This document shows positions 1,002-30,495 of a stretch of 33,275 nt of DNA, one piece after another; position 1 is the first letter of the stretch, and the number at the start of each line of letters is the position of its first letter. Source of the DNA: Candidatus Aegiribacteria sp. (GTDB lineage Bacteria; Fermentibacterota; Fermentibacteria; Fermentibacterales; JCC-6). The position numbers and the translations under genes were made by a program. The DNA lies in NCBI GenBank assembly GCA_030613065.1, contig JAUWMQ010000016.1:1-33275 (forward strand). The letters run 5' to 3'. The notes below the pieces were generated by a model. It was given only the letters and a program-made list of their open reading frames with translations. It was not told where the DNA came from and did no database searches.

Positions 1002-4000
1002 TTATATGAGATCCATTATCGCCGCAGCGGCGGCTTCCAGCTGTCTGTCGATACTCTGCCCTGCATCGGCGGGAAGTTCGGGAACATGAATATCGGGCTC
1101 AACACCACTGTTCTCAAGGTTCTCTCCAGTAAGTGTATACCAGCCTGTTCCAGGCACCCTGAAACCGGTTCCATCTACAAGTGTCACATCGGAAGTTCCG
1201 ATCACCGCTCCATAGGTAGTCTCGCCTACTATCGGGCCAAGGCCGAGCTGTTTCCATCCTTCGGGGAATATCTCAGCGTCGGAGAAACACCTTTCGTTTA
1301 TGAGCAGTACAAGGGGCTTCTGCCAGACTCCAAGGGGGGCAAAGGAAATGTTCCCATACCTGTCCGATGAAAACATGTATATCGGACGCCCGAGTTCGCG
1401 AATTATATCATCGTGGGTATTGCCGCCTCTGTTGTTGCGTATATCAATAATCATACCGTCACTTCCAAGACCCTCCGCAAAGAGGTCGACCAGGAAATTC
1501 TCCACGCTCCTGTTGCTCATGGAAGGTATGTGAAGGTACCCTACCCTTCCGCTCGTAAGCCTGGCAACTTCCCTCCTGTTCCTTTCAATCCATTCATCAT
1601 AAACGAGGCTCCGGATAGCCCAGATGGAAACTGGCTCAATGTCTACATCTATAAGATCACCTGAACGATTGACTCTTAATCTTGTTATACGGTCCCTTCT
1701 CTGTAGAAGTGCCCTGTACAGGTTATCCTCAGGCCCGACATTCATGCCGTGAACTGAAATGATGATGTCACCGGGATAAAGGCGCGAATTTTCAAGGTCC
1801 GCAGGGGAATAGGGAATAACGCTGTCCACAAGAATCCCAGGCCCCACCCAGCTGCCATCAGGTATGATACCTATCGAACCAGAAGCGGGAGTGGAATCAA
1901 AATTCCAGGGACCGTAAATTCCAAGATGCGAAGCGGACAGTTCTCCGAGCATTCTCCTGACAACATCGTTGAAATCTTCATTGATAACGCTGGATACCGC
2001 TCTTTCCCGGTACATAGTACGCATGGAATCCCAGTCCACTTCATGCATGTCAGGATCATAGAAATTATCTCGCAGCAGTCTCCATGCCTCATCGAACTTC
2101 TGGGCCTGTATCTCCGCTATGGAACGCCATACGGGCATGTACCATCCGAGTGTACCGCTTATTCCAGAAGCGGGTGCTGCAATCCGTATGGAACCGCTGA
2201 GGGATATGTAATATATTTCACCATCGTTGTTTACAAAGATTTCCTCCGGATACTCTCCTGTGTAGGTTACCCTCTGAAGGGATTCACCCTTCCAGTCAAC
2301 AGTCCAGAGGTCCATTCTGCCCTTGTCATCCCATCCGGGAAAGGCGATGATTCTGCCATCAGGAGAAGCTCCGTAGAAATCGTAGTAACCTTCCACAGTG
2401 CAGAGTGTTTCAGTTCTACGCTGCAGGCCGTCCCATTCAATATCAACCTTTTCCAGGGGCTGATCCAGAAGTTCCTCGCGTTCATCATTATCGCTGTCCC
2501 ATGCAATTCTTGAAAACCAGACCTGTTTAATTGAGTAATCACCGTCATCTGTCCTGCTTGCATACAAAATCCTATGGCCGTCATCCGGCCAGAAGGGCTG
2601 GAAATCGTCGTTAGGATGCCTGCTTATATTGCGTGGTTCTCCACCATCTGAAGGTACAATAAAGATATCTTCCCTGTCTGCCAGGACAGGTACACTGAAA
2701 GCAAGCCATCTGCTGTCGGGGGACCAGGAATGGTGAATTATGTCAGGAGTTTCACAGACTCTGATATCGTGCCCTGTTACTACATTGAACACATGGAGCC
2801 TGGAATCCCGATCCAGATATGATACCCGTTCTTCATCAGGCGCCCATTCTGGTTTACATGCCACATCGGAACTGGTGGAAAGCATATCGATTTGCGGAAA
2901 GGTGGAATTCGCCAGCAGGGAATCCTGATGCTCTGCAAAACTTCGAGCCAGTTGAACTTTACCATCGTGTTCAAGGCTGAACACCAGGGTCCTGCCATCA
3001 GGACTCCAGACAGGATCTCTGGCTCTCCATGCACCGGAGTAGATCTGCACTATGTTTTCTATGCTGCCATCCTCAATAGTTCCAACGAAAATGTCGCCAG
3101 TTCCCACAACAGCGATCTGTGTACCTGAAGAGTCTATATCGAAACAGTCGGTTACAAAACCAACCGATTCTCCATACTCAAGGGGAAACGGGAAATCCGA
3201 TCCCGGGATCAGCGGAATTTCGGATATGGACCAGTCGGGAACGTTCAGGCAGTAAAGCCCTCCGTTGAATTCAAATGCAATGGTTCTGCCTGTAGAGTTA
3301 ATTTCAGGAAATGTTATGTCTCCATCGGTAAGGAATGTTCTCTGCAGTGGCTCTCCCTCTGGCTGCATGCTCCATATAGCAGCATGCCCGTCCGAATCCT
3401 CTCTTACAAACAGTATCTCATCAATGAGCGGTGAATACATCGGCCACCGTGAATCGAGTTCCGAATCATCCAGCAGTTCCCAGTCGGTCCCGGTACCTGT
3501 CCAGATCTTTCTTGAGGCGGAACCGCTGTAATGCTTACGCCACCAATTCGTGAACCCTCTCTCTATTGCCATACCGACCGGAAGCTGGCAGATATTCTCA
3601 GTTTCAACCCTGGCAACAGGATATGGAGTTCCACCTGTCACAGGCACTGAATAAACCCATGAGTTTCCTCCCTCTCTTGAGGACTGGAAATAGACGCTGC
3701 CGGAAGCAGCGCTCCAGCCGAGTACCCTGTCCAGACCAGCATGATAGGTCAGGCGGGTTGAAATACCGCCTGAAGCGTCCATGATATAAACATCTCCACC
3801 AGCAGTCCTGCTGCTGGTGAATGCAATAAAGCGGCCATCGGGAGAACAACAGGGTGATGTCTCCGTACTTTCTCCGGGCACGAGGCATCTCATGATACCT
3901 CCCGACATGGGAACCTCCCAGATATCTCCTCTGAAACAGAATACCACTGTTGTGCCGTCAGGAGATGGACAGGGTTCCCTGATATCGGACATTCCTATAG

Positions 4001-6396: not shown

Positions 6397-7239
6397 CTAT
6401 TTCAGGTAAAGCAGCAGGTTCTTGCTGTCTGTTTTATCGTTGAGTTTGGAAATAGCCCTGTTCTTCAGCTGGCGTACTCTCTCTCGGCTTATACCCATTG
6501 TCCTTCCTATCTCAGCGAGTGTATGCCTTCTATCTGTGTTTATTCCGAAGAACAGCTGGATTATCGTTCTTTCGCGCTGATCGAGAATGTCCAGCATACC
6601 CGAAACACTTCTCTTCATTGCAGTTTGTACTACAGCTTCATCGGGTGGTACATCATCGTCATCGGAGATCATCTCCTGGAAAGTTTTATCACTGCCTTCG
6701 TAAACAGGGCTGTCAAGTGAAAGATGCGTACTGTGGATAGACATCATTCCTTCCACATCTCCTCTGGATACATCCAGTTCATCGGCAATCTCATTTGTAG
6801 ATGGATTTCTGCCTAGAGAATGACCAAGTTCCCTTGCTGCACGACCCATTTTATAAAGTTCTCCGACACGGTTCAACGGAAGACGGACAATTCTTGACTG
6901 CTCCGCCAACGCTTGAAGAATCGCCTGCCTTATCCACCATACCGCATATGTTATGAAACGACATCCTTTGCTCTCGTCGAATCCCTTTGCAGCTCTTATA
7001 AGCCCCACATTTCCCTCATTTATAAGGTCTTCCAGCGCAACACCCTGATTTGCGTACTGCTTCGCAATGCTGACTACGAACCTGAGATTAGCCTCTGTAA
7101 GTTCGTTCAAGGCTTCCTGCTCGCCCGCACGGATGCGTTTGGCAAGTGAAGCCTCTTCGGCAGAGGAGAGCGTCTCCTTACTCCCGATTTCCCTGAGATA
7201 GAGTTCAAGCGATCTTCCTTCTGTGCGCTTTGTCGCCAA
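6397..7239 (-). CDS. rpoD: RNA polymerase sigma factor, sigma-70 family (RpoD/SigA-like), TTG start
   Basis: This 280-residue sigma factor has all the conserved regions of a group 1 or 2 sigma. Region 1.2 is LELYLREIG at about 11-19. Region 2 contains NLRFVVSIAKQY, DLINEGNVGLIRAAKGFD and RFITYAVWWIRQAI (-10 recognition and core binding). Region 3 follows with LPLNRVGELYKM. Region 4.2 ends the protein with the -35 helix-turn-helix TLAEIGRTMGISRERVRQLK. It lacks the long region 1.1, like the short primary sigma factors of Bacteroidetes and Chlorobi. It may be the housekeeping sigma, but a second copy elsewhere cannot be excluded. The start is TTG: a stop lies just upstream in frame, and an AAGG box sits about 11 bases before it. 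The intergenic region upstream holds an array of TTGACA half-sites. Confidence 0.92.
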   Translation of the reverse strand: MATKRTEGRSLELYLREIGSKETLSSAEEASLAKRIRAGEQEALNELTEANLRFVVSIAKQYANQGVALEDLINEGNVGLIRAAKGFDESKGCRFITYAVWWIRQAILQALAEQSRIVRLPLNRVGELYKMGRAARELGHSLGRNPSTNEIADELDVSRGDVEGMMSIHSTHLSLDSPVYEGSDKTFQEMISDDDDVPPDEAVVQTAMKRSVSGMLDILDQRERTIIQLFFGINTDRRHTLAEIGRTMGISRERVRQLKNRAISKLNDKTDSKNLLLYLK

Positions 7240-8477: not shown

Positions 8478-9439
8478 AAGCCATGTTGCTTTGCGCAGGT
8501 TTCGGAACCAGGCTGAAACCTCTTACGGATTCGCTTCCGAAACCACTTGTGAAAATCGCAGGTTTTACACTTATTCATGACACCCTGCTTCACCTGTTTC
8601 GGCAGGGTGTCGATACAGCTGTAGTAAACGGCTCATGGATGGCTGACAAGATTGAGGATTATCTGGGAAACGCTGATCTGCCATTGAATCTTATATTCCA
8701 GAGGGAAGAAGAACCGCTTGGAACAGCTGGAGGGGTCAGGAAAGCCCTTCCATTCCTGGGTGAGGAATTCCTGGTTGTGTATGGTGACAATCTTACAAGG
8801 CAGCCTGTATCTCCTCTTATGGAACTTCACCGCAGGCTGGATTCAGAGGTGACCATTGCCCTCTCTCCGACCGGCGAACCATCAACCAAGGGTATAGTAC
8901 TTACTGATCCGGACGGAAGGGTTAGATGTTTTCGTGAGAAACCGCCCGATGAGATCGCTGAATCAAACCTTGCCAACTCCGGATTATACATCTGCAGAAA
9001 ATCAGCTGTTGAACATCTGCATGAAGGAGAATTCTCTGATTTCGGGATGAACGTATTCCCCATGCTCCTGAGCGAAAAAAGGGTTCTGGCTGCTGATACT
9101 CCCGGAGGGTACACAAGCGATATCGGAACAGGAAAAAGCTACCTGTTGGCCTGTCACGAAATTCTTTCCGGCAGAGTGATCCCGTATGAAGATAGCGATA
9201 ACATCAAGAACGGCATATTGATAGAAAATGATCAATCCTACGATGAAATTGAACTCAAAGGTACATTCTGGGCGGAGAAAGGAGCCCTGATCTCAGAAGG
9301 TTGCTCTCTTGAAAATTGTGTTGTACTATCCGGTGCGGTCATCGATCGGAACTGTACGTTAAAGAATTGTCTTGTAATGCCTGGAACAGCAGTACCAGAA
9401 TGTACTATCGCTGATGATAAATACCTGAAAGTGTTCTGA
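8474..9439 (+). CDS. Sugar-phosphate nucleotidyltransferase with C-terminal beta-helix
   Basis: This 321-residue enzyme transfers a nucleotide to a sugar 1-phosphate. The N-terminal Rossmann domain has the signature LLCAGFGTRLKPLTDSLPKPLVKIAG (the G-GTR and PKP lysine), EEPLGTAGGVRKALPFLG, and the metal-binding VVYGDNL. Substrate-side aspartates are in YTSDIGT. Residues from about 240 form a short left-handed beta-helix (ALISEGCSLENCVVLSG, VIDRNCTLKNCLV). The family covers mannose-1-phosphate and heptose-1-phosphate guanylyltransferases and similar enzymes. The following GmhA-like isomerase makes a heptose-type substrate attractive, but no kinase or phosphatase of the heptose pathway is present here. 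Its ATG overlaps the stop of the methyltransferase (ATGA). Confidence 0.88.
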   Translation: MKAMLLCAGFGTRLKPLTDSLPKPLVKIAGFTLIHDTLLHLFRQGVDTAVVNGSWMADKIEDYLGNADLPLNLIFQREEEPLGTAGGVRKALPFLGEEFLVVYGDNLTRQPVSPLMELHRRLDSEVTIALSPTGEPSTKGIVLTDPDGRVRCFREKPPDEIAESNLANSGLYICRKSAVEHLHEGEFSDFGMNVFPMLLSEKRVLAADTPGGYTSDIGTGKSYLLACHEILSGRVIPYEDSDNIKNGILIENDQSYDEIELKGTFWAEKGALISEGCSLENCVVLSGAVIDRNCTLKNCLVMPGTAVPECTIADDKYLKVF

Positions 9440-12650: not shown

Positions 12651-14396
12651 TTAGTAAGGCCTGATAATGTGTGGAGTAACAAATATTACAAGCTCTGTAC
12701 TTTCTTCCCGTTCGGAATTGTAGGAGAAAAGCAGATCTCCGAGCAGCGGAATACTTCCCAGTATCGGGATGGATCTTCTGACGGTTGTAGACTTGCTTCT
12801 CATTATTCCACCGATAACCGCTGTGGCACCATCGTCTATCATCAGGACTGTATTGGCGCTCTGTGTCAGAATTATGGGTAGCGTGCTGGTTGCCTCTCCG
12901 GCAAGCTCGCTTACGACCGGATTAAGCTCAAGAGTTACGTTGTTGTCAGCATTTATATGAGGTGTTACGGTCAGCTCAATTCCAATCTGATACATCTCTA
13001 TATAGGTGTTTCCAGCCGCATCTTGAAGGGTCAGGGGTATCAGCTTACCGGATAGTACTGAACCGGTCATGTTGTCGATTATCGCTATCCTCGGCTCCGA
13101 AAGTATATGCGCGTGATTCTGGGATTCAAGCATAGTAATAACTGCGTTCACATCGAACATATTGGTAATGGTACTGAATGAGAGAGAGGCGCTCGGGTCT
13201 TCTACAGCTAGACCGCTGCTCATACCTGCGTGTACCAGATCGTTTGACCTTCCAAGATTCCCGAGGGACCAGTCAATACCCATTTCGCTCGCATAGCTGG
13301 CATCTATTTCCACCAGTTTCGCCTCTATCATTACCTGTGCTGTCGGACTGTCCAGGATAGGTAGAAGTCTGCCAACTTCCTCGAGTTTGTATGGTATATC
13401 CGTGACGATAAGAGAGTTTGTCCTGTCATCAACAGATATCTGGCCTCTCTCGGAAAGAGCGGTAATGAGAGCACTGTTCAGGCTCTGCGCAGTAGCGTAT
13501 CTGATTACGTATATTTGAGTCTGGAGTTCCTGAAGGTTCTCTCTGTCATGACGAGTTGACGCCATCTGATTTATTTCTGTATAGAACTCATCCCTTGGTA
13601 TTACTCTCAGGACATTACCCTGCATACTGGCAGCCAGCCCCTGAGAGTTTAGAATCGCTGTGAGTGCATCCTTCCAGCCAACATTCTGCAAACGGGCTGT
13701 AACCGAGGAAGTGTAATTCTCAGGAAGCATGATATTCATTCCGCTTACATCTGAGATAGCTCTCATAACAGTTCTAATGTTTGCATCAACAACATCAATG
13801 GTTATACTTCTACCGCCGGAGCCCGACCATTCCACCGGGAAGCCATCTTCTATTTGTCGAGGGGTCTCACTAATACGGATACCCCTTGTTGAAGTTGCGG
13901 TGGACTGTCCGGAAAGAGAAGAGTAATCCGGTGATGAAAGTGGCTGCACATCTGCACCATTTACAACAGATACAACATATTCAGAATTGGCTGACCATGC
14001 GGCAAAGGGTATGCCTGTCGGATCTGTCTGCATTTCAAGAACGAGTTGATTCCCATCAAGAGATGCAGTGTAGTTGAGAAGCTCTCCGTTGACATCGATT
14101 ATTATTCTGACGATGCCGTCAGGTGGAGCTTTGTACTGACTCGTTCGTATGGATAGAACACCTCCCCTGTTAACAGCAAAATCCATCGACGGCAGCGAGT
14201 GCACTGCATCGCCGATGTCAAGAACGATCCTCATAGGATCGGTCAGGAGAAACCTTTCGTACGAAATAGCATCATCAGCAGCTATAGTGACCAGGGTCAC
14301 GTCACCGCTGGGTACTACCGAGATATCGGTAATCCTGTAAGCCGCAGCTGGCAAAACCAGCAACAGCAGGAGACTACATACGGTTAATAGACGCAT
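12651..14396 (-). CDS. pilQ: Type IV pilus secretin PilQ
   Basis: PilQ forms the outer-membrane channel for type IV pili. The 581-residue protein has a signal peptide (LLTVCSLLLLLVLPAAAY). One AMIN domain lies at about 20-130 (YRITDISVVPSGDV...) and likely binds peptidoglycan. A linker follows, then an STN-type domain at about 195-275 (DVVDANIRTVMRAISDVSGMN), a secretin N-domain at about 295-365 (YVIRYATAQSLNSALITAL), and the secretin barrel to the end. The VPVLGDIPLLG-type signature appears as RSIPILGSIPLLGDLLF, and the chain ends ELVIFVTPHIIRPY. A single AMIN domain makes it shorter than proteobacterial PilQ. Its ATG overlaps the PilP-type gene stop as TGATG. The presence of a secretin implies an outer membrane. 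Confidence 0.95.
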   Translation of the reverse strand: MRLLTVCSLLLLLVLPAAAYRITDISVVPSGDVTLVTIAADDAISYERFLLTDPMRIVLDIGDAVHSLPSMDFAVNRGGVLSIRTSQYKAPPDGIVRIIIDVNGELLNYTASLDGNQLVLEMQTDPTGIPFAAWSANSEYVVSVVNGADVQPLSSPDYSSLSGQSTATSTRGIRISETPRQIEDGFPVEWSGSGGRSITIDVVDANIRTVMRAISDVSGMNIMLPENYTSSVTARLQNVGWKDALTAILNSQGLAASMQGNVLRVIPRDEFYTEINQMASTRHDRENLQELQTQIYVIRYATAQSLNSALITALSERGQISVDDRTNSLIVTDIPYKLEEVGRLLPILDSPTAQVMIEAKLVEIDASYASEMGIDWSLGNLGRSNDLVHAGMSSGLAVEDPSASLSFSTITNMFDVNAVITMLESQNHAHILSEPRIAIIDNMTGSVLSGKLIPLTLQDAAGNTYIEMYQIGIELTVTPHINADNNVTLELNPVVSELAGEATSTLPIILTQSANTVLMIDDGATAVIGGIMRSKSTTVRRSIPILGSIPLLGDLLFSYNSEREESTELVIFVTPHIIRPY

Positions 14397-15808
14397 CAGA
14401 GACCACCTTCTTCATGTAAACGCAGAGAGTAAATGGTTGGGATCGTGGTCTCCCCTCCACCTCTTGCGCTATAATCAACAATAACATCCTGAATTACAAT
14501 GACTTCATTACTAGTTATCTCGGCAACGTGGGAATTGTTGGCAAGGATAGTTCCTTCATAGAGGATGTAGGGTACACCTATTGCGTCTTCTACCATAGCC
14601 TGATCACCACCAACAGGATCAAGTGTTATTCCGACAAGCCTGAATTCCTCTACCGATATGATCTCAAGATTCCTCCTGGCATCCCTTCCTTCGGTTGAAA
14701 ACTCGGTGAACGGGTCGGGTCTGATCGAAACAGATTCATATATCCTGAAGGTTCCTCCGCCTGCCTGTATTATATCCTCTATGGACTCTGAAGAACCCTG
14801 CATCCCGTGCGTGTTCTGCCCTGCCATGGAACAGGATACACGCTGAGTATCGTAGTAGGGGAGACTGGTTTCAACTGAGCCCATGCCGGTGTAGACCGTT
14901 ATTCCAAGGTCATCAATTGCCCAAACAGGTTCCCGGAAATCTCTCATTGCGAATAATCTTGCTGGCTCGAACGACGGCGCTTCAGCGATAATCTCTCCTG
15001 GAGACATGACTGTTGAAATACCGTTCTCTGCCAGCACAAGGCCTCCATCATACAGACGGCCATCCGAATGATAATTCCATTCGCCCTGCGAGGTTCTTAC
15101 ATAAATGGTGTCCTGGAAGCCGATGAACAGAATGTTGTCGGACGATGCCAATATTTCTCCATCGGGGGAATCCTCGAACTGCCACAGGGCAACCGAGGGA
15201 TCGAACAGCGCAAGACCTCCACCCTCAAGACTGAATATCCAGTCCGGCCCTATTCGTTGAAGGTCACCCCGGGGATTCAATTGTTCAGAAGCGGAATATA
15301 CCGTGAAACCATCTTCCTCCCTGATCGCCAGATCTCCATCCGTGCCCAGAATTGCTATATCAGTGTTACTGATCTTCAGCTCCATCGGGTAGAAACCCTC
15401 CGGGAGTGATTCTGAAAGAGCCTCTCCGGTGTTATAGTTGAATACAACGTATTCACTTTCGGTAACGAATGCGGGAATCTCGCCTACCAAGTCGAAATCA
15501 AGAACAGTGCTGACATCCTCCAGGCAGTAGGCCTTCCATTTTCCATCAATTCTGCTGAACCTGAGGAGCGTGCCCCCTTCAAAAAGCAGCCATGCATTAT
15601 CTTCCCCTGCTTCGGCCATTATGGGAGGAGCCTGCGAAAGGGTCATCTCTATCCAGCCGTAAACGTCGGAACTGGATACCACAGTTATGGATACTACTGG
15701 ATGATCAACAGTTGCGGTTGCGTCATCCGTACTCTCACCACAGCCGGAAACCAGGAATACTGCTGCTGCTGCCAGAAGGGCTGTATAAGTTAATTTTGAG
15801 ATACTCAT
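14396..15808 (-). CDS. pilP: PilP-type lipoprotein with a large extra N-terminal domain
   Basis: This 470-residue protein sits exactly where pilP belongs, between pilO and pilQ. It has a lipobox (FLVSGC, lipidated Cys near 23). Residues about 40-330 form a run of short strand-rich units (NAWLLFEGGTLLRFS, EYVVFNYNTGEAL, DWIFSLEGGGLALFD) that looks like a beta-propeller. The last roughly 110 residues match PilP: IRPDPFTEF (the DPF motif), EEFRLVGITLDP, YILYEGTILANNSHVAEITSNEVIVI, and IYSLRL at the end. Typical PilP is about 175 residues, so this is a fusion or greatly enlarged form. PilP links the PilN/PilO inner-membrane complex to the PilQ secretin. The propeller call rests only on pattern. 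An AGGGG box precedes the ATG. Confidence 0.75.
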   Translation of the reverse strand: MSISKLTYTALLAAAAVFLVSGCGESTDDATATVDHPVVSITVVSSSDVYGWIEMTLSQAPPIMAEAGEDNAWLLFEGGTLLRFSRIDGKWKAYCLEDVSTVLDFDLVGEIPAFVTESEYVVFNYNTGEALSESLPEGFYPMELKISNTDIAILGTDGDLAIREEDGFTVYSASEQLNPRGDLQRIGPDWIFSLEGGGLALFDPSVALWQFEDSPDGEILASSDNILFIGFQDTIYVRTSQGEWNYHSDGRLYDGGLVLAENGISTVMSPGEIIAEAPSFEPARLFAMRDFREPVWAIDDLGITVYTGMGSVETSLPYYDTQRVSCSMAGQNTHGMQGSSESIEDIIQAGGGTFRIYESVSIRPDPFTEFSTEGRDARRNLEIISVEEFRLVGITLDPVGGDQAMVEDAIGVPYILYEGTILANNSHVAEITSNEVIVIQDVIVDYSARGGGETTIPTIYSLRLHEEGGL

Positions 15809-22022: not shown

Positions 22023-23024
22023 TCACTTTTCCCGTACACCGGGAATATTGGAGTATCTGAAATCTCTCAGATCTATCTCACCGGAGTACTCATCCAGAAT
22101 TTTGTAAGTTCTCTTAACAAGATCATCAAGCTGTGGGCAGATTCTGGAATAATCCGCGAGATACCTGAAAGTTCTGGGCAGGTATCCCAGATATTTTGTA
22201 TCACCCGTTTTCCTGTACTGGAGAGCGAACGTACCTATGGCTTTCAAACTTCGCTGACATGCTGTTCTCGCAATCTGAAACATGTTCATATGGCCCTTAG
22301 CCATAACGAATTTTTTGGCTCTGTCCTCCCATGAATATCCGGGATCTCTGTAACTGTCTCGTATAAGGCTTACCACATCGTATGCAGGGGGACCGAACCG
22401 GGCATCCTGCCAGTCAAGCATGGTCAACCGATTATTATGAACCATAAGATTCGCACTATGAAAGTCTCTCTGAACAAAGACTGTTGACTCGGAGATCATG
22501 CCGCAGAGCTCTCGCATATCCTTCTGAAGCGCGAGAAGTTCTACCATTGGAACTTCAAGAAGTCGGAAAAACAATGTTTCCAGAGTATTCTCAAGCTCTG
22601 CCATGAAGAATGCTGGAGTGAAGCTTCTTCTGCCAGCAATAGAATCTGAACAGGCCGTACTGTTAAGTTTTCTCTGCATGGATATGATCATGTTAATTGC
22701 TTCATCGAGATACTTCAAGTACTGGTCATCATCCAGATCAAGCAATCTGAGGCTGCCCAGATCCTCTTGTATAACCCATCCCATTTTGGTGTTGCATTCC
22801 CTGATTGAAGGAACACTGAATCCGTGATCGGAAAGAAGTTCATGAATATCCAGCCATGGCCATATGGGTATCTTCCCGCTGTCCATCAGTATAAGAGTTT
22901 CCCCGTCTGCGAACAGGCGCCAGAAAAGCCTTCCAGACACATCACCGTGCAGCCTCTTAACAGTTACGCTGTTATCGGTTCTGGTCCTGAGCCAGGTAGC
23001 AAGTTCCAGAGACATGGTTATCAT
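22023..23024 (-). CDS. amgK: AmgK-like sugar kinase (aminoglycoside phosphotransferase fold)
   Basis: This 333-residue protein resembles AmgK, the anomeric N-acetylmuramate/N-acetylglucosamine 1-kinase of peptidoglycan recycling. Marks are LHGDVSGRLFWRLFADGETLILMD (nucleotide loop and strand), VIQEDLGSLRLLD, the catalytic QRDFHSANLMVHNNRLTMLDWQDARFGPPAYDVVSL, and IRDSYRD. The catalytic Asp is present, but the usual preceding His (HRD) is Gln. The metal-binding D of DWQDA is present. It is followed by trpS and preceded by a nucleotidyltransferase with a 4-base overlap, as in the AmgK-MurU pair. The recycling role is inferred from that pairing. A generic sugar kinase is the alternative. Confidence 0.8.
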   Translation of the reverse strand: MITMSLELATWLRTRTDNSVTVKRLHGDVSGRLFWRLFADGETLILMDSGKIPIWPWLDIHELLSDHGFSVPSIRECNTKMGWVIQEDLGSLRLLDLDDDQYLKYLDEAINMIISMQRKLNSTACSDSIAGRRSFTPAFFMAELENTLETLFFRLLEVPMVELLALQKDMRELCGMISESTVFVQRDFHSANLMVHNNRLTMLDWQDARFGPPAYDVVSLIRDSYRDPGYSWEDRAKKFVMAKGHMNMFQIARTACQRSLKAIGTFALQYRKTGDTKYLGYLPRTFRYLADYSRICPQLDDLVKRTYKILDEYSGEIDLRDFRYSNIPGVREK

Positions 23025-23908
23025 ACGAATTCACCGTCCTGACTGCTGCAGAACCAGGGCAGTATGGATTTCTCAAGTGTACCGGTTTCGAGGGATGAAC
23101 CATCAAGCATGACACTGTCCCGAAGGAAGGTACCGCTTCCCAGAATGCAACCCTTACCGATATTCCATAATCCACTGAGAGAAACATCGCTGGAAATGCA
23201 TGCTGTGGGATGTATATAAGAACCTCCGGATAGAATATTCCTGCGAAGCATATCTATTCTGCCCATGTCCAGCCATCTGCCATCCCCCATGCAGGCAGTG
23301 AGTGTGCCGCTGTCTGCCGATATACTGGAAGCAAGTTCGGAGAACATGCCTCCCGAAGCCTGTATCCTGGCGGCGGTAGCTGGAACCGTGGGTTCCATCA
23401 GGCTTACCCCCCAGTAATGCGTCATTTGTTCGCCGCTGCATCCAAATATCATATCTTCATCTATCAATAAGGGAGAATAATTGCCATCGGGCGGGAAGTT
23501 TCCTGTAAGAGCCGTCCAGGTTGATCCTGTTTTCCTGTGATGTTCAAGCAGCCCGAGTGCATTAAAATCCTCTATTATCATATCCGTGTTTACTATCATC
23601 CAGGTCCCGGTATCCATTAGATCCGCATGTCTGGCCAGGGTTGCTGAGGCACCCAGAGGTCTTTCCTCAAAATATACTTCACACATTTCTTCCTGCCAGA
23701 TCACTGTAATCTCGTTCAACAGTGCTTCAGGACATCTTGAAGCGTTTATTCTGATTCTCCGGGGACATACAGAATGTATCTGTCGTGCAAGCATTCCCAG
23801 AACCGATGTATCTCCGAATGGCAGCAGAGCTTTCGGACGGATAAGAGTAAGGGGTTCATCCCTCCTGCCGTAACCGGCTGCAAGGAAAAGAACCCCCGCA
23901 ATCTCCAT
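23021..23908 (-). CDS. murU: MurU-like sugar-phosphate nucleotidyltransferase
   Basis: This 295-residue enzyme has a nucleotidyltransferase Rossmann core with a divergent signature FLAAGYGRRDEPLTLIRPKALLPFG (normally G-GTR..P). Further marks are EERPLGASATLARHADLM, VNTDMIIEDF (metal Asp), and RWLDMGRIDML. A beta-helix tail follows from about 245 (GGSYIHPTACISSDVSLSGLWNIGKGCILGSGTF). MurU adds UMP to N-acetylmuramate 1-phosphate. The neighbouring AmgK-like kinase, with a 4-base overlap, supports that role; a mannose-1-phosphate guanylyltransferase is the main alternative. The start has AGG about six bases upstream. Confidence 0.78.
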   Translation of the reverse strand: MEIAGVLFLAAGYGRRDEPLTLIRPKALLPFGDTSVLGMLARQIHSVCPRRIRINASRCPEALLNEITVIWQEEMCEVYFEERPLGASATLARHADLMDTGTWMIVNTDMIIEDFNALGLLEHHRKTGSTWTALTGNFPPDGNYSPLLIDEDMIFGCSGEQMTHYWGVSLMEPTVPATAARIQASGGMFSELASSISADSGTLTACMGDGRWLDMGRIDMLRRNILSGGSYIHPTACISSDVSLSGLWNIGKGCILGSGTFLRDSVMLDGSSLETGTLEKSILPWFCSSQDGEFV

Positions 23909-25258: not shown

Positions 25259-26028
25259 AGTCCCTTATTCCGTTCCTTATTGATAAGCAGAATTCTGTCA
25301 CCGGTGCGAAGCCCGAGAAGATCAGATGCACTCCCGCCACTGACAGCAATTTCCATTAAGTCCTGGCTGCCCTGAATAAATAGAACACCAGGATTATCTC
25401 CGTAGGTTTTAACCTCTGTAACAATTTCAACCTCCCCACCGGGGAGCTGCAGTAAGGCGGGATGATATGCGCTGGATACGGGTAACCAGAGAACAATATT
25501 ACCAAATTTATCTACATGGGCAACCGATACTTTCAGTCCGCCGGCCTCCCGTATCGGCTTCTCAATTACGGATGGAACGAGACTCTCTTTCTCAATCGGT
25601 TCCAGTGAATCCACCCACCCGGGGTCGATTATGAGTCTGGCTGCAGCCGGGGCGAAAACATCCCTTCCGTGGAATGTGCTGCTGAATCCAGCCTGCGGAT
25701 CAGGAAGTTTCCAGGCTTTGCCTATGGGCAGAAGTCCGAAAAGACCATTATCAGGCCCTGAATAGAAAACTCCAGTAACTTCGCAGATCACTCCTCTACG
25801 GGCAGTTCCCACTCCGGGATCGATCACTGCAACCACTACCGAACCCGCAGAGACATATTTATGGAAAACGGAGAGATGGAAAGCGCCTTCACTTACTGAT
25901 CCCGGCTTAACATTATGCGTCAGATCTACAATTGCTGTACCTTCAGAGCAGAGTGACAGTATCACCGCCTTCATCTGAGCGACATAGGTGTCAGATATTC
26001 CGAAATCTGAAAGCAGAAATACACTCAT
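25255..26028 (-). CDS. SAM hydroxide adenosyltransferase (SAM hydrolase, DUF62 family)
   Basis: Members of this family split S-adenosylmethionine to adenosine and methionine using water, and are related to fluorinases and chlorinases. The 257-residue protein shows LLSDFGISDTYVAQMKAVIL, VVAVIDPGVGTARRG, FYSGPDNGLFGLL, FHGRDVFAPAAA (the His, Arg and Asp of the hydrolase group), and a C-terminal domain with VDKFGNIVLWL. The hydrolase set being present argues against a halogenase, which is an inference. It overlaps both neighbouring genes by 4 bases. Confidence 0.9.
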   Translation of the reverse strand: MSVFLLSDFGISDTYVAQMKAVILSLCSEGTAIVDLTHNVKPGSVSEGAFHLSVFHKYVSAGSVVVAVIDPGVGTARRGVICEVTGVFYSGPDNGLFGLLPIGKAWKLPDPQAGFSSTFHGRDVFAPAAARLIIDPGWVDSLEPIEKESLVPSVIEKPIREAGGLKVSVAHVDKFGNIVLWLPVSSAYHPALLQLPGGEVEIVTEVKTYGDNPGVLFIQGSQDLMEIAVSGGSASDLLGLRTGDRILLINKERNKGL

Positions 26029-29000
26029 CTATATTTAAGAACCACAAGGGTCTGATCATCACCCTGCGGCGAACCCTTTGAATATGAGTTAACAGCATCC
26101 AGTATCCCGCTGGATATCTGGTGCGCGGAAAGGTCACGGTTTTTCAGGATAACCTTGTATAGTCTCTCTGTCCCGAATTCAAAGCCTGACGAATCCATTG
26201 CCTCTGTCATCCCATCTGTGTAGAGAACAAGCACATCTCCCGATTCAAGTTCCACTGTTCCGTGCTCATATATTGCCTCGGTTGAAAGCCCCAGAATAAG
26301 CCCACCTATGTCAAGCCAGTGGGGTTCCCCCTCCCTCTTTACAAGAATCGGAGGGTTATGCCCTGCGTTAACGTAAGTAAGGTTGCCCGAATCAAGGTCA
26401 AGCACGCCGTAGAAGAGACCGGTCAATATAGGATCTCCCTCGCCCAGAATAGAGGATTCGTTAACCTTCTGAATGATCGCGCTGATGGAATATATACTCT
26501 GCACGTAGGCTTCCAGATTGCCCTTAAGCCCCGCCATTGTAAGTGCCGCAGGGATACCTTTCCCGGCAACATCGGCCACCGCCAGTCCAAGGTTACGGTC
26601 AGGCAGGTTGAAAAAATCGTAGTAATCGCCCCCTACTTCACGGGCAGGCCTGTAGAAAATCTCTATATCGTAACCCTCAGGATTGGGAGGGCTATCCGGA
26701 AGGAGATCAAGCTGTATCTTCCGCGCCATGTTCAGTTCTTCCGATATGGCATGTCCGGCAGAGAACCTGTTAAGAAAAATATCAGGTATCCTGTTCCTGA
26801 TAATATCCGAGGTCAGCAGCTCCGGAGTTTCGGTAACCAGTCTTATCACTTCCATTCGTACTTTTCTATCAGGATCGGAGAATAATTCTGCAAGTTTAAC
26901 ATATATATCTGATATTGAATAGAGTTCAGGGTGCTTTCTGAGACCGCTTAATGCCTCCAGCCTCACATCTGACGCAGAATCATCAAAAGCGCTGATTATT
27001 ACTGGAAGTAGCTTTCCGGTAGATATGGAAACGTTGTCGAGCAGACCGGAAAGAGCATTGAGACGTACATAGGGATCTTCATCCTCAAACAGCTCCTTCA
27101 GAGTCGGATCAAGATATTCAGATTCATCATTTTCAAATTCTCCAAGCGCCATGGAGACAGCAGCCCTTACAGCCCGTTTCTCGTCATGTACCAGCGTACT
27201 GAGTGCATCGAACGTTTCGTTTGTTCTTACTCCAAGGTTCCGGATCGCTTTCACCAGCGATTTTCGAACGTCTGAAGAGGAATCCAGTCTGAATTCAGCT
27301 ATGAAATCGGAAACAGAATCACCGAGGTCACCCCTATTCCAGAGTATAAAGAATGGGAGAGCGGCTCTTTCCTTGAATTCACCGGTCTTAAGAATACCTG
27401 CAATCAGGTCAACAGATGCTTCAATAAGATCTGTCCTGCCAAGGCAGATGAGCTGGCTGAGAGCCTCCCTTCCTCCATAGTGATCCGATACCAGCACCTC
27501 AATCAGAAGGTCTCTTCTTATTCCTGTGTCCATGATAGTGTAGTATCGCAGCACCATGCTTGCGAATTCCCTGCTCAAGGCGATTCGTTCGTGGATAAGT
27601 TTCCAGAGGTTCTCCTTTTCCTCATGATCCAGGGAGAAATAGTTCATCAGCATGCAGCGCGAGACCGGAAGAATGTCCTCCTCTGCGAGATCGGTCCTGA
27701 TGGATTTTCTAACATCATCGCTGAAGAACCTGAGTCTGGCACCGATCCTCCATGCAAGCCTTCCCTTACCTCCTGGAGGCAGTCTGTCCATCAGGACCCA
27801 GAGCAGGTCGTTGAATTCGTGGTTGAACTCCTCAAGCTTCCTGTCCAGAAGCCCCACTATCAGGTTAGTCATCAATTCGGAGTTACCCTCTTCCATAACC
27901 TCGTTCAGCACATCGAATTCCCTGGGTTCAAGCGCGGGGAACTTGCTGCCTATGTACAGCATCAGACCTCGGCGGACTTCGAAAGATTGATCCTCAAGAA
28001 AATCACTGTAAATCTCTCCGCATTTCTCAGACATTCCCCACATGGTCAGACCCTGAATGAACCCTCCCCTGACTCTTGATTCAGAGTCAGTCACCGCCTC
28101 ATGCACAAGATCCTTAAACACAGGCAACGCAAGTACCCATTGCCGCCCGAGAGTTCCGGCAACCGCCATTCTAACTTCTGCATCACCTTTCGACATCATG
28201 ATCCTGTACATGCTTACAATCGACTCATCCGAATGGTCAGCAGAGCTTAAAAGCATATTAAGAACGTCAACAAGAACCACTCCGGACCTTTCGGAGGCGA
28301 TATGAAGAAGAAGTTTTGCCTTTACTTCATCGGAGAGGCTCTTATAGAAGCCGGCAAGGAAGTACCCGGCCCGTCTTACTCCGGGTTCCTCACTCCCGAT
28401 CAGCGTATCAGCAAACGCCCTGATAACCGGAGCATCCTTTTCAAGCAGCTCACGGATACCTCTGTCGATAGCCCACATCCTGACGTAATCACTGACAGTG
28501 ATATAAACTTCGCCGCTTCCGTAAATTCTTCTGAATGGATCAGCACCCCTGGCTGCTAGAGATCTGCTGTAGAGTTCTTCCAGTTCTTCATTGGATGGGA
28601 ATCTCTTATTCTCCTGTACAATGAGCCTGTCAAGAAATCTGAAGAGAACTCGTTTAAACACCGCCTCAGCAACAACAGGGTCGAAGGCAGCCAGAAGAAG
28701 TAGTTCAGCTTTCTCGAGGGCGGAAAGCCTGCGGAACCACCTTAGAGCCTCCCTGCCCTGTTCCAGTCTCCATTTCCGGTCTTTTGAGGGTTCCGGGAGT
28801 CTGACATGGGCGTCATTGTATGAATCGAAAATTTGGGCGATCTCCGTAGAGGATGTTGCAAGTATCAGTCTGTGCCTTGATTCTGTAGCTCTTGTCATAA
28901 GTGCAATAACCGTTGACCATAGCCGGGAGGGATACACATCCACCATTCTCCTGAGAGTATCAAGATCAAGGAAGACAGCGCAATCCTCCGGACCCGTAAG

Positions 29001-29639
29001 AAGCTGCACAACTTCCCTGGAGTTCAGATCTCGCGCAATTATCTCGATAGGGTTCATATTTTCCTGCGAGGCTTCCACCAGCAGTTTTCTCGCAATGGTG
29101 GTTTTTCCAGCTCCCAGGGATCCGCTGAGGCAGACGAATCCACGCCTTGCAAAAACTTCCCTGGCCTTCTCAAGTGAATCCAGATCAACGGAAAGCAGAT
29201 CAATATCACCATAGGATTGAAGCAGCCTGCTGCCTTCAGGATAGGGAAAGAATTCCCGGTTCAGGCTTCTTAGCCAGTCCTGAACCTGGTTACGCAGGAG
29301 TTCCCTGCCTTCGTTGGCCGATGAGAACGTCCAGCAGAGAGCTTTTCCCACAAGATACTGAACCGCATTATCATCCTCCGGTTCCTTCATAAAGCATATC
29401 CCGGCGATCGGGACAGCGTGCCGGAAGCAATTGTAGTAAATGTTTCTGAGTTCGGGAGAAAGAGGTCCGTTGATTATAAGCAGGAGAGCATCTGGAGTTG
29501 GAGTATCCGATCGGGAAATCAGAAGTTCATCAGCCCAGCGGGGAGGTATAAGAATATCAGCGTCTGTTTTTAGAATATCCCGGATGCCCCCGGGCAGTTC
29601 CCTGCTTTCAAATACTACCGAAAGAGTGAAGCTGTTCAC
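26025..29639 (-). CDS. STAND-like NTPase, HEAT-repeat and PP2C phosphatase fusion
   Basis: This 1204-residue protein has four parts. Residues 1-130 form an alpha/beta region of unknown kind. A P-loop NTPase follows, with Walker A GSLGAGKT at 173-180, Walker B AVFLDLD at 221-227, and a sensor-like RLILATSS near 260. Its layout resembles the nSTAND3 group. From about 400 to 960 are HEAT-like helical repeats (DPYVRLNALSGLL, ASDVRLEALSGL, DRKVRMEVIRLV). From about 970 is a SpoIIE/RsbU-type PP2C domain with all its metal sites: REVGGDYYDF, VADVAGKG, LYTDGMTEA and GDDQT. RsbU-type enzymes dephosphorylate a STAS protein. The STAS and RsbW-like genes lie just upstream, so this is probably the module's switch. 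The GTG start lacks a clear ribosome site. NTPase subgroup and trigger are inferred. Confidence 0.88.
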   Translation of the reverse strand: MNSFTLSVVFESRELPGGIRDILKTDADILIPPRWADELLISRSDTPTPDALLLIINGPLSPELRNIYYNCFRHAVPIAGICFMKEPEDDNAVQYLVGKALCWTFSSANEGRELLRNQVQDWLRSLNREFFPYPEGSRLLQSYGDIDLLSVDLDSLEKAREVFARRGFVCLSGSLGAGKTTIARKLLVEASQENMNPIEIIARDLNSREVVQLLTGPEDCAVFLDLDTLRRMVDVYPSRLWSTVIALMTRATESRHRLILATSSTEIAQIFDSYNDAHVRLPEPSKDRKWRLEQGREALRWFRRLSALEKAELLLLAAFDPVVAEAVFKRVLFRFLDRLIVQENKRFPSNEELEELYSRSLAARGADPFRRIYGSGEVYITVSDYVRMWAIDRGIRELLEKDAPVIRAFADTLIGSEEPGVRRAGYFLAGFYKSLSDEVKAKLLLHIASERSGVVLVDVLNMLLSSADHSDESIVSMYRIMMSKGDAEVRMAVAGTLGRQWVLALPVFKDLVHEAVTDSESRVRGGFIQGLTMWGMSEKCGEIYSDFLEDQSFEVRRGLMLYIGSKFPALEPREFDVLNEVMEEGNSELMTNLIVGLLDRKLEEFNHEFNDLLWVLMDRLPPGGKGRLAWRIGARLRFFSDDVRKSIRTDLAEEDILPVSRCMLMNYFSLDHEEKENLWKLIHERIALSREFASMVLRYYTIMDTGIRRDLLIEVLVSDHYGGREALSQLICLGRTDLIEASVDLIAGILKTGEFKERAALPFFILWNRGDLGDSVSDFIAEFRLDSSSDVRKSLVKAIRNLGVRTNETFDALSTLVHDEKRAVRAAVSMALGEFENDESEYLDPTLKELFEDEDPYVRLNALSGLLDNVSISTGKLLPVIISAFDDSASDVRLEALSGLRKHPELYSISDIYVKLAELFSDPDRKVRMEVIRLVTETPELLTSDIIRNRIPDIFLNRFSAGHAISEELNMARKIQLDLLPDSPPNPEGYDIEIFYRPAREVGGDYYDFFNLPDRNLGLAVADVAGKGIPAALTMAGLKGNLEAYVQSIYSISAIIQKVNESSILGEGDPILTGLFYGVLDLDSGNLTYVNAGHNPPILVKREGEPHWLDIGGLILGLSTEAIYEHGTVELESGDVLVLYTDGMTEAMDSSGFEFGTERLYKVILKNRDLSAHQISSGILDAVNSYSKGSPQGDDQTLVVLKYR

Positions 29640-29655
29640 GGAATGAGAACCACTT

Positions 29656-30075
29656 TCAGGTCAGAGGCCAGATAAGAGTGACCCTCGTTTTTCCTTCCGG
29701 GGTAAGACCGAATTCAACCCATTTGGCTAGATTACGGGCGATAAGGACTCCTCTGCCCCTTGTTAAAAGGAGCTCTTTCCCCTCTCCCGGATTGAAACCG
29801 AGGGCTTTCTCTGGTTCCCAGGACCCTTCGTCATCTATCAGAAAACGTATTCTGTTAGGAAGAATGCTGAAACTGATAGTAACATGCTTTTCAGGGTTAC
29901 TCTTGTTTCCGTGCTCAATCGCGTTCTTCGTAAGTTCGACAACTGCAATCGACAGTAACGACAGATCATCTTCCTCGACTTCTGCAGATCTTCCAATAGC
30001 TTCAACGATCAGCTGAAGAGTTTCGAGTACGGAAGAGTCACTTGGCAGGCGTATTTCTATAGGTTGCACAATCAT
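29656..30075 (-). CDS. RsbW-like anti-sigma factor kinase
   Basis: This 139-residue protein is an HATPase_c kinase of the RsbW/SpoIIAB type. It has the N box VELTKNAIEHGNKSN at about 46-60, the G1 box IDDEGSW near 80, and GRGVLIARNLAK near 107. These proteins hold a sigma factor or another target inactive and phosphorylate their STAS antagonist. No sigma gene of the matching kind is next to it, so the target is unknown. The ATG overlaps the STAS gene by 4 bases, and the NTPase-phosphatase gene follows after 16 bases. Confidence 0.9.
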   Translation of the reverse strand: MIVQPIEIRLPSDSSVLETLQLIVEAIGRSAEVEEDDLSLLSIAVVELTKNAIEHGNKSNPEKHVTISFSILPNRIRFLIDDEGSWEPEKALGFNPGEGKELLLTRGRGVLIARNLAKWVEFGLTPEGKTRVTLIWPLT

Positions 30076-30413
30076 TCTCCGAAACTATTCAACGCTTTCT
30101 GTTCATCAGTATATGTCTCAAAGATCGTAATCAACTTCGTAATAATGAACAATTCATGGATTTTCTTCGTGGCATTGAGAATCCTCAGAGCTCCACCGGC
30201 TCTCGACAGAGTGGTATGACCGGATACAATTACTCCAAGGCCGGAACTATCCATCCAGTTTACCTTTCCGAGGTCAAGAAGTACTTTCAATCTATCCTGC
30301 TCAACGGCTTTCTTGAATACATCCTTAACTTCAATAAGTTCGGGACCACCGATGATTTTGCCGGACAGACTAATAACAAGAACATCGTCCTTCATTTCCT
30401 GCTTGATATTCAA
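30072..30413 (-). CDS. STAS-domain anti-sigma factor antagonist (RsbV-like), TTG start
   Basis: This 113-residue STAS protein has the family phosphorylation segment NWMDSSGLGVIVSGH, with Ser56 or Ser57 the likely site. It also has VLVISLSGKIIGGPE and LRILNATKKIHELFIITKL. In the unphosphorylated form such proteins bind a RsbW-type kinase and free its target. The start is TTG at 30413, with GGGAGG six bases upstream. An open-frame TTG 15 codons earlier lacks such a site and precedes the conserved domain. It is the first gene after a good promoter, and heads the operon running through to cysS. Confidence 0.9.
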   Translation of the reverse strand: MNIKQEMKDDVLVISLSGKIIGGPELIEVKDVFKKAVEQDRLKVLLDLGKVNWMDSSGLGVIVSGHTTLSRAGGALRILNATKKIHELFIITKLITIFETYTDEQKALNSFGE

Positions 30414-30467
30414 TTTTTTCCTCCCGATAATTGTAAGTTTTTCAGAAACAAAAACCAATTCAGGTTT

Positions 30468-30495
30468 AATATAGTCCTAAAATACTTATTGACAA
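30468..30495 (-). promoter_or_regulatory. Promoter of the partner-switching operon
   Basis: On the minus strand TTGTCA (30490-30495) and TATATT (30468-30473) are separated by 16 bases. Each matches the consensus at 5 of 6 positions. Transcription would begin near 30461 with a leader of about 48 bases to the TTG start. The -35 overlaps the motif shared with 957-974. Confidence 0.6.

Follow-up and report, generated by a model that had tools for sequence, protein, structure and literature searches.

Gene content and domain architecture of the locus

The window analysed here is the whole 33,275-nucleotide stretch of contig JAUWMQ010000016.1 (assembly GCA_030613065.1, Candidatus Aegiribacteria sp.). 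Its minus strand carries three consecutive genes, recognized from the open reading frame (ORF) list and Pfam, that encode a STAS antagonist, an RsbW-type switch kinase and a 1204-residue protein combining a nucleoside triphosphatase (NTPase), HEAT repeats and a phosphatase (Table 1). An earlier note, made from the sequence alone, had described this trio at 26025–30458 as a partner-switching module with a STAND-like NTPase. The three ORFs were present as placed there, except for the start of the STAS gene, which is probably TTG 30413 rather than TTG 30458, because GGGAGG lies just 5' of TTG 30413 and because GGAGG followed by TTG, GTG or ATG was seen by eye at the equivalent start in all 31 loci inspected (29 distinct, two repeats). 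The STAS protein matched Pfam STAS (7.4e-13) and NCBIfam ant_ant_sig (63.0 bits, cut-off 53.45). The STAS gene shares 4 bases with the RsbW gene, 16 bases separate the RsbW gene from that of the 1204-residue protein, and the latter overlaps its 3' neighbour, a SAM hydroxide adenosyltransferase (SAM_HAT) gene, by 4 bases.

From N- to C-terminus, the 1204-residue protein consists of an N-terminal domain, an nSTAND3 P-loop NTPase, HEAT repeats and a SpoIIE/RsbU-type PP2C phosphatase. The nSTAND3 match (residues 153–278, 1e-10) scored 42.0 bits, above the Pfam cut-off of 27.2, so that the profiles agree with the P-loop domain claimed in the earlier note, and both Walker motifs were confirmed at the residues it gave. 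HEAT families were matched through HEAT_2 (4.4e-20) and also HEAT; as this profile is concentrated in part of the region between NTPase and phosphatase, the HEAT nature of the rest is inferential. Both nSTAND3 and HEAT_2 were matched in each of 12 scanned proteins, the window's own among them (E up to 5). The SpoIIE match covers residues 1013–1203 (4e-42), and a conserved EELxxARxIQxxLLP motif stands at the start of the PP2C part, shortly C-terminal of the HEAT region. HEAT repeats and an intact PP2C domain, with its metal-binding residues kept, therefore do lie in one chain, as the note had proposed. Residues 1–150 are likely, by eye, to form an alpha/beta domain, possibly akin to those of TIR or DUF4062 type. 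In Pfam searches of this domain (E up to 10) five families appeared, each in just one of 12 members, and the best match among PDB sequences had an unconvincing E of 0.68. The usual, though not universal, STAND order is an N-terminal effector followed by C-terminal repeats. The order found here is atypical, with PP2C C-terminal of the HEAT region (by Pfam) and an additional N-terminal domain.

Table 1. Coordinates of the trio, its promoter-like site and the parts of the 1204-residue protein
Feature	Residues	Position in window	Strand	Basis or remark
Promoter-like site, TTGTCA-16-TATATT		30468..30495	-	Upstream of STAS gene; consensus scan and conservation
STAS antagonist, RsbV/SpoIIAA type	113 aa	30072..30413	-	Probable extent; ORF in the earlier note reaches 30458
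RsbW-type switch kinase		29656..30075	-	Pfam HATPase_c_2, 1.5e-19
N-domain/nSTAND3 NTPase/HEAT/PP2C protein	1204 aa	26025..29639	-	Pfam and residue alignment
N-terminal domain	1-150	29190..29639	-	Pfam and PDB sequence searches without convincing match
nSTAND3-type P-loop NTPase	151-285	28785..29189	-	Pfam and alignment
Walker A, GSLGAGKT	173-180	29100..29123	-	Alignment
Walker B, AVFLDLD	221-227	28959..28979	-	Alignment
Region between NTPase and PP2C	431-955	26775..28349	-	HEAT profile mainly at 781-939
Short linker helix and SpoIIE/RsbU-type PP2C	964-1204	26028..26750	-	Helix by motif; PP2C by Pfam

The promoter-like site was obtained from a consensus scan that returned three sites in the region, against 1.7 by chance. 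Its complete motif (spacer 15–16) was present in 10 of 14 same-genus loci and its −10 hexamer in all 14; the alignment consisted of 11 loci picked for bearing the motif or a near-motif. The motif was not seen in the other genera examined, G025 excepted.

Conservation of the trio

The host genome (2.8 Mb, 159 contigs, 93 % complete) belongs to a lineage whose phylum in GTDB we take to be Fermentibacterota. NCBI taxonomy does not place the genus Candidatus Aegiribacteria in Fermentibacterota and lists a close relative, L035, as Candidatus Aegiribacteria of the FCB group. By a hand tally of coordinates, 35 of the phylum's 42 genomes carry the STAS and RsbW genes directly beside all or the start of the big gene, so the trio is conserved, as the neighbourhood comparison suggested in the earlier note was meant to establish. 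These 35 include G008, where the adjacency lies on a contig with residues 1–117 only, and G026, where the big gene is spread over several frames. Three further genomes (G002, G006 and G031) hold a fragment of the big gene ending at a contig end, and no trio gene was found in the remaining four (G014, G018, G021 and G040). Nowhere in the 42 genomes did a STAS–RsbW pair stand beside a big protein without the NTPase, the three partial copies stopping at contig ends; a frequent loss of the NTPase would have spoken against the module.

The gene order GT2–STAS–RsbW–big gene–SAM_HAT–GH57 was repeated in most loci with sufficient flank. Exceptions were the GT2 match, missing beside the trio in L014, L015 and L024, SAM_HAT in L006, and GH57 within the flank of L025. 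The trio occupied this site throughout the loci sampled, which span eight genera and two families and differ in a few neighbours. As in the window, two further trio-bearing loci have 4Fe-4S and thioredoxin-like genes on the upstream side; downstream follow sugar-nucleotidyl, APH-type, Tyr/Trp-type and Cys-tRNA synthetase genes. This synteny suggests that the trio was inherited vertically. In G014 (98 % complete) the site is cleanly empty, with the GT2 match ending at 8861, SAM_HAT beginning at 9017 (L121) and the flanks in order, and STAS, RsbW and big genes were not found elsewhere in that genome. This joint absence, although seen in one genome, is the best evidence that the three genes act as one unit; with the flanks intact, it also indicates that the neighbours do not need the trio. 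Loss of the trio was considered and not claimed for the incomplete G018 (61 %) and G021 (66 %), nor for G040, whose contig stops some 160 bases short of the site.

Residues were compared between the window and 29 loci (L006–L034), yielding 28 nearly full-length big proteins; L018 and L021 were left out of the big-protein alignment as they run into contig ends, and L010 came without upstream DNA. Walker residues G173, G178, K179, T180, D225 and D227 were unchanged in all 28 copies, as were PP2C residues D1005, D1023, D1142, D1194 and D1195, with the motifs GGD, DV.GKG, TDG and DD invariant. RsbW residues E47, N51, D82, G84 and RGRG 106–109 (N and G boxes) and the STAS phospho-site motif DSSGLG were kept in 29 of 29 loci. 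This invariance makes all three proteins look enzymatically competent.

The rest of the chain has diverged unevenly. When 27 loci were compared, identity to the window in the 14 most remote was 25–37 % for the N-terminal domain, 35–38 % for the region between NTPase and PP2C and 46–64 % for the NTPase. In the eight closest loci the intervening region was 74–83 % identical and the whole chain 79–86 %. These values bear on whether the N-terminal domain might be the true effector, with PP2C serving only to reset the switch. An effector at the N end is described for Avs5 in a passage of PMC12931631, and in close relatives the N-terminal domain is better conserved than the HEAT region, which leaves room for such a role. 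In distant genera, however, conservation is lowest in this domain and the HEAT region and highest in the NTPase and PP2C, and no family match was found for the domain; we regard this explanation as highly improbable.

An equally slim chance is given to an Avs-like defence function, in which a phage product would be sensed and the partner switch would be the response. Avs5 does contain nSTAND3, according to a part of PMC12931631, and a PADLOC HEAT-ARM model matched residues 786–939 (1.5e-09, 33.9 bits). With E allowed up to 0.001, however, the trio matched no further model of the defence library, Avs NTPase included, and no plasmid match was obtained for residues 1–960. The close similarity of the intervening region among the nearest loci and the occupation of the same site across the phylum also speak against defence, and it is above all the fixed synteny that makes it disfavoured. 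The protein resembles Avs5 and other nSTAND3 STAND/NLR-like proteins in combining a repeat region with an NTPase that has Walker A. It differs in that the effector of Avs5 is an N-terminal Sir2, whereas here PP2C lies C-terminal behind the repeats, and in that its gene belongs to a partner-switch set whose chromosomal position is stable.

Occurrence of the architecture outside the phylum

Genome and literature searches sampled known genomes and did not exhaust them. A profile of residues 1–430, for which six candidates per genome were scored, matched 36 of the 42 phylum genomes. It also matched 30 of 248 other genomes (best E 4.7e-6), where the matches listed comprised Walker A and little else. 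The whole protein, with at most about eight candidates scored per genome, matched 45 of 80 other genomes; no match among those listed began before residue 909, all lay on or near PP2C, and the best foreign one reached 45 % identity over PP2C (L090). PP2C ORFs were obtained from 26 foreign loci, and 20 of them, among the closest or longest, were scanned with Pfam (E up to 1e-5). SpoIIE was accompanied in these by GAF, HAMP, CHASE/PAS, PDZ, response regulator/GGDEF/Hpt, propeller, FHA, Cache or HATPase_c_2, or stood alone; no P-loop or HEAT family was found beside it in the 20 ORFs, of which L100 was scanned over 837 of its 1218 residues. In GAF-, HAMP- and PAS-linked SpoIIE phosphatases the PP2C type is thus the same and the sensor part unrelated. 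A scan of named genomes gave, among the matches listed, one true relative (L035) and L036, which matched residues 167–236 only. Its 594 stretches were mostly Walker A patterns, so it carries scant weight as to the lack of further relatives.

Among the open-licence PMC matches listed, none described STAND/nSTAND3 or HEAT joined with SpoIIE or RsbU; one of the papers, PMC4634765, contains both SpoIIE and NACHT. The main text of PMC12088040 uses none of the words HEAT, NACHT, AAA and STAND. The novelty proposed in the earlier note was thus upheld within these samples: the architecture was not found elsewhere and no described family came to light. The trio with its STAND–HEAT phosphatase is a real, conserved and apparently undescribed input variant of partner switching.

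A proposed STAND-like sensor as activator of the phosphatase

Much of the trio is familiar from the RsbU/RsbP–RsbV–RsbW switch of Bacillus subtilis, which likewise has a STAS protein with DSSG, a HATPase_c_2 kinase and a SpoIIE-type PP2C after a short helix. The input differs, being nSTAND3 and HEAT here and the RsbU N-terminal domain or PAS there, and in contrast to B. subtilis no SigB-type sigma gene is adjacent. The favoured interpretation, to which we assign a probability of roughly 55 %, is that in this partner-switching module a STAND-like sensor serves as the activating phosphatase and dimerizes its PP2C domain by self-association. At rest, RsbW would phosphorylate the STAS protein at the conserved serine and remain on its target. 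On a signal, a ligand or partner protein would bind the HEAT arc, the N-terminal domain or both; the nucleotide state of the NTPase would then shift and the chain would self-associate, pairing two PP2C domains via the short helix that immediately precedes them. PP2C would dephosphorylate the STAS protein, which would capture RsbW and so release the target. We infer the part of the NTPase in driving PP2C dimerization, as we do the ligand and the identity of the target.

Such a mechanism is plausible by analogy. For SpoIIE, a section of PMC5468089 reports that dimerization moves switch helices and activates the phosphatase. For RsbU, formation of a coiled coil by the linker is described in PMC12143880 as the activating event, the inputs named there being PAS, response-receiver, GAF and HAMP. 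For STAND proteins, passages of PMC12931631 and PMC7159879 report, respectively, that an nSTAND3 defence protein requires its Walker A residues and that eukaryotic receptors assemble in an NTP-dependent manner when a signal binds their repeats. Given the conserved motif at the start of PP2C close to the end of the HEAT region, any module that pairs two chains would suffice. The domains and motifs, the intact active sites, the co-conservation in 35 of 42 genomes, the joint absence from G014 and the genus-conserved promoter-like site all support this interpretation.

Four observations weigh on the other side. Structure prediction of residues 1–460, from the window protein and one 86 %-identical relative (L035), gave a mean predicted local distance difference test (pLDDT) score of 33.2, too low for a usable model. 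The nSTAND3 protein treated in PMC12931631 has an N-terminal effector and C-terminal repeats, while HEAT lies between NTPase and PP2C here, so the coupling is not that of a textbook STAND protein. The genome has four other SpoIIE-type PP2C matches that could act on the same STAS protein. Finally, the RpoD-like second sigma factor considered below as a target also occurs in G040, a genome in which no trio turned up (contig ends).

Another function for the NTPase would be that of a cellular energy sensor, the ATP/ADP level alone setting the phosphatase and HEAT merely positioning the phosphorylated STAS protein. The RsbQ–RsbP partner switch of B. subtilis answers energy limitation, as stated in part of PMC3183031, and the stable gene order is what would be expected of a housekeeping regulator. 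Against this, a region of about 500 residues is large for merely placing a 113-residue substrate. The faster divergence of that region compared with the NTPase fits a binding surface but would also fit any repeat. Energy sensing of this kind is considered unlikely.

If the favoured sensor mechanism is correct, a STAND-like ATP-binding domain with a protein-binding repeat, placed before a PP2C that is usually given simpler sensors, may constitute a new route of activation. It would unite STAND receptors, mostly studied in immunity, with partner switching, two themes not found together in the searches made. It would also allow a direct test of the proposal, made in part of PMC12143880, that linker-dimerizing modules run RsbU-type phosphatases, and the trio suits such a test, since the assembly of STAND domains is believed to depend on nucleotide and ligand.

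Candidate targets and other switch components

The earlier note was correct that no sigma gene adjoins the trio, yet a primary-type sigma gene lies in the same window (6397–7239, minus strand), beside an M23-type peptidase gene. It matched Pfam regions 1.2, 2, 3 and 4, and its best models were RpoS and RpoD, under their cut-offs. Sigma-70 region 2 was matched eight times in the genome, by this primary-type protein, one long RpoD-like protein (L039) and six ECF-like or partial proteins, as judged by length and eye. The two non-ECF proteins scored 122.0 and 110.7 bits against a SigB/F/G cut-off of 234.35, and no SigB/SigF-type sigma was recognized in this one, 93 % complete genome. This leaves the target of RsbW between the primary sigma, the RpoD-like second sigma and a non-sigma partner, any of which it may bind. 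The window RsbW is the only stand-alone protein among the genome's four HATPase_c_2 matches. The window STAS protein is likewise the only stand-alone one of two PF01740 matches, a model that a divergent STAS_2-like protein beside L046 escapes. In this uncultured lineage, for which one genome was searched and no SigB-type sigma recognized, the trio looks like the principal partner switch.

Partner switches with other targets are known. According to PMC4552016, an RsbW is able to bind the primary sigma, which the later PMC11619594 still treats as a model; an HsbR-type regulator controls RpoS, as reported in part of PMC6482189. In the Chlamydia RsbU–RsbV–RsbW and HsbR/CrsR–RpoS partner switches, the reported target is a primary sigma or RpoS. 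Their sensors differ from the one described here, HsbR itself being a response regulator, and the target of the trio is a candidate only.

By hand tally, 39 of the 42 genomes of the phylum have a non-primary RpoD-like sigma, the exceptions being G014, G018 and G021; the 39 include all 38 in which the big protein is present whole or in part. Its long and short forms, those of the sigma, were counted as one gene on the basis of an unrooted tree and, by eye, one shared neighbour. The co-occurrence makes this sigma a lead as the RsbW target; it is weak because G040 keeps the sigma and because G018 and G021 are incomplete. The long form in the host genome (L039, G000:C32, 1018–2337, minus strand) is extended at its N-terminus by about 190 residues.

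Alternatively, the STAS protein or RsbW could control an enzyme such as a cyclase or glycan enzyme. This is possible, at less than even odds. It accords with the low SigB/F/G scores of the two non-ECF sigmas and the ECF-like or partial character of the other six, with the SiaC–SiaD precedent described in part of PMC8457831, and with GT2 and GH57 genes among the neighbours. The flanks persist in the same order in the trio-less G014, however, and are to that extent independent of the trio. Pairing with a sigma factor is, moreover, the commonest known arrangement for RsbW. The second RpoD-like or the primary sigma is slightly favoured as the target over a non-sigma partner. A fuller picture is put forward only tentatively and is, taken as a whole, doubtful: an NLR-like receptor would bind a protein on its HEAT arc and assemble with nucleotide, the resulting PP2C dimer would let STAS and RsbW throttle the primary or the RpoD-like second sigma, and the trio, with its fusion, would serve housekeeping rather than immunity and be ancestral to the phylum.

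Scans of three further SpoIIE phosphatases encoded in the genome found GAF in L002 and L003 and a weak rubrerythrin-like part in L005. As these carry sensors of their own, several inputs may feed one switch. In L005 (G000:C126, 47–1045, minus strand) the N-terminal rubrerythrin-like match scored 19.4 bits, below its cut-off, and is perhaps an iron or oxygen input.

Additional switch components were observed. At L046 (G000:C94), a second mini-switch has, at 1471–2781 (minus strand), one chain that joins an XRE-type helix-turn-helix, a divergent SpoIIE-like PP2C (20.7 bits, below the cut-off of 25) and HATPase_c_2, and a small STAS_2-like protein (25.1 bits, below the cut-off of 29.2) is encoded at 1138–1467 (minus strand). 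In G016:C5 (L128, about 147600–149150), HATPase_c_2 and PP2C share one frame of 1039 residues beside a STAS protein, and in G003:C69 (about 700–2000) adjoining HATPase_c_2 and PP2C matches lie in frames of 714 and 572 residues.

Other observations in the window

A 470-residue ORF with no Pfam match (14396–15808, minus strand) lies between secretin and PilO genes in a type IV pilus cluster. At 22023–23908 (minus strand), an APH-type kinase gene adjoins a nucleotidyltransferase gene, in the same order in four compared loci; the pair presumably resembles the arrangement of a sugar anomeric kinase with a uridylyltransferase.

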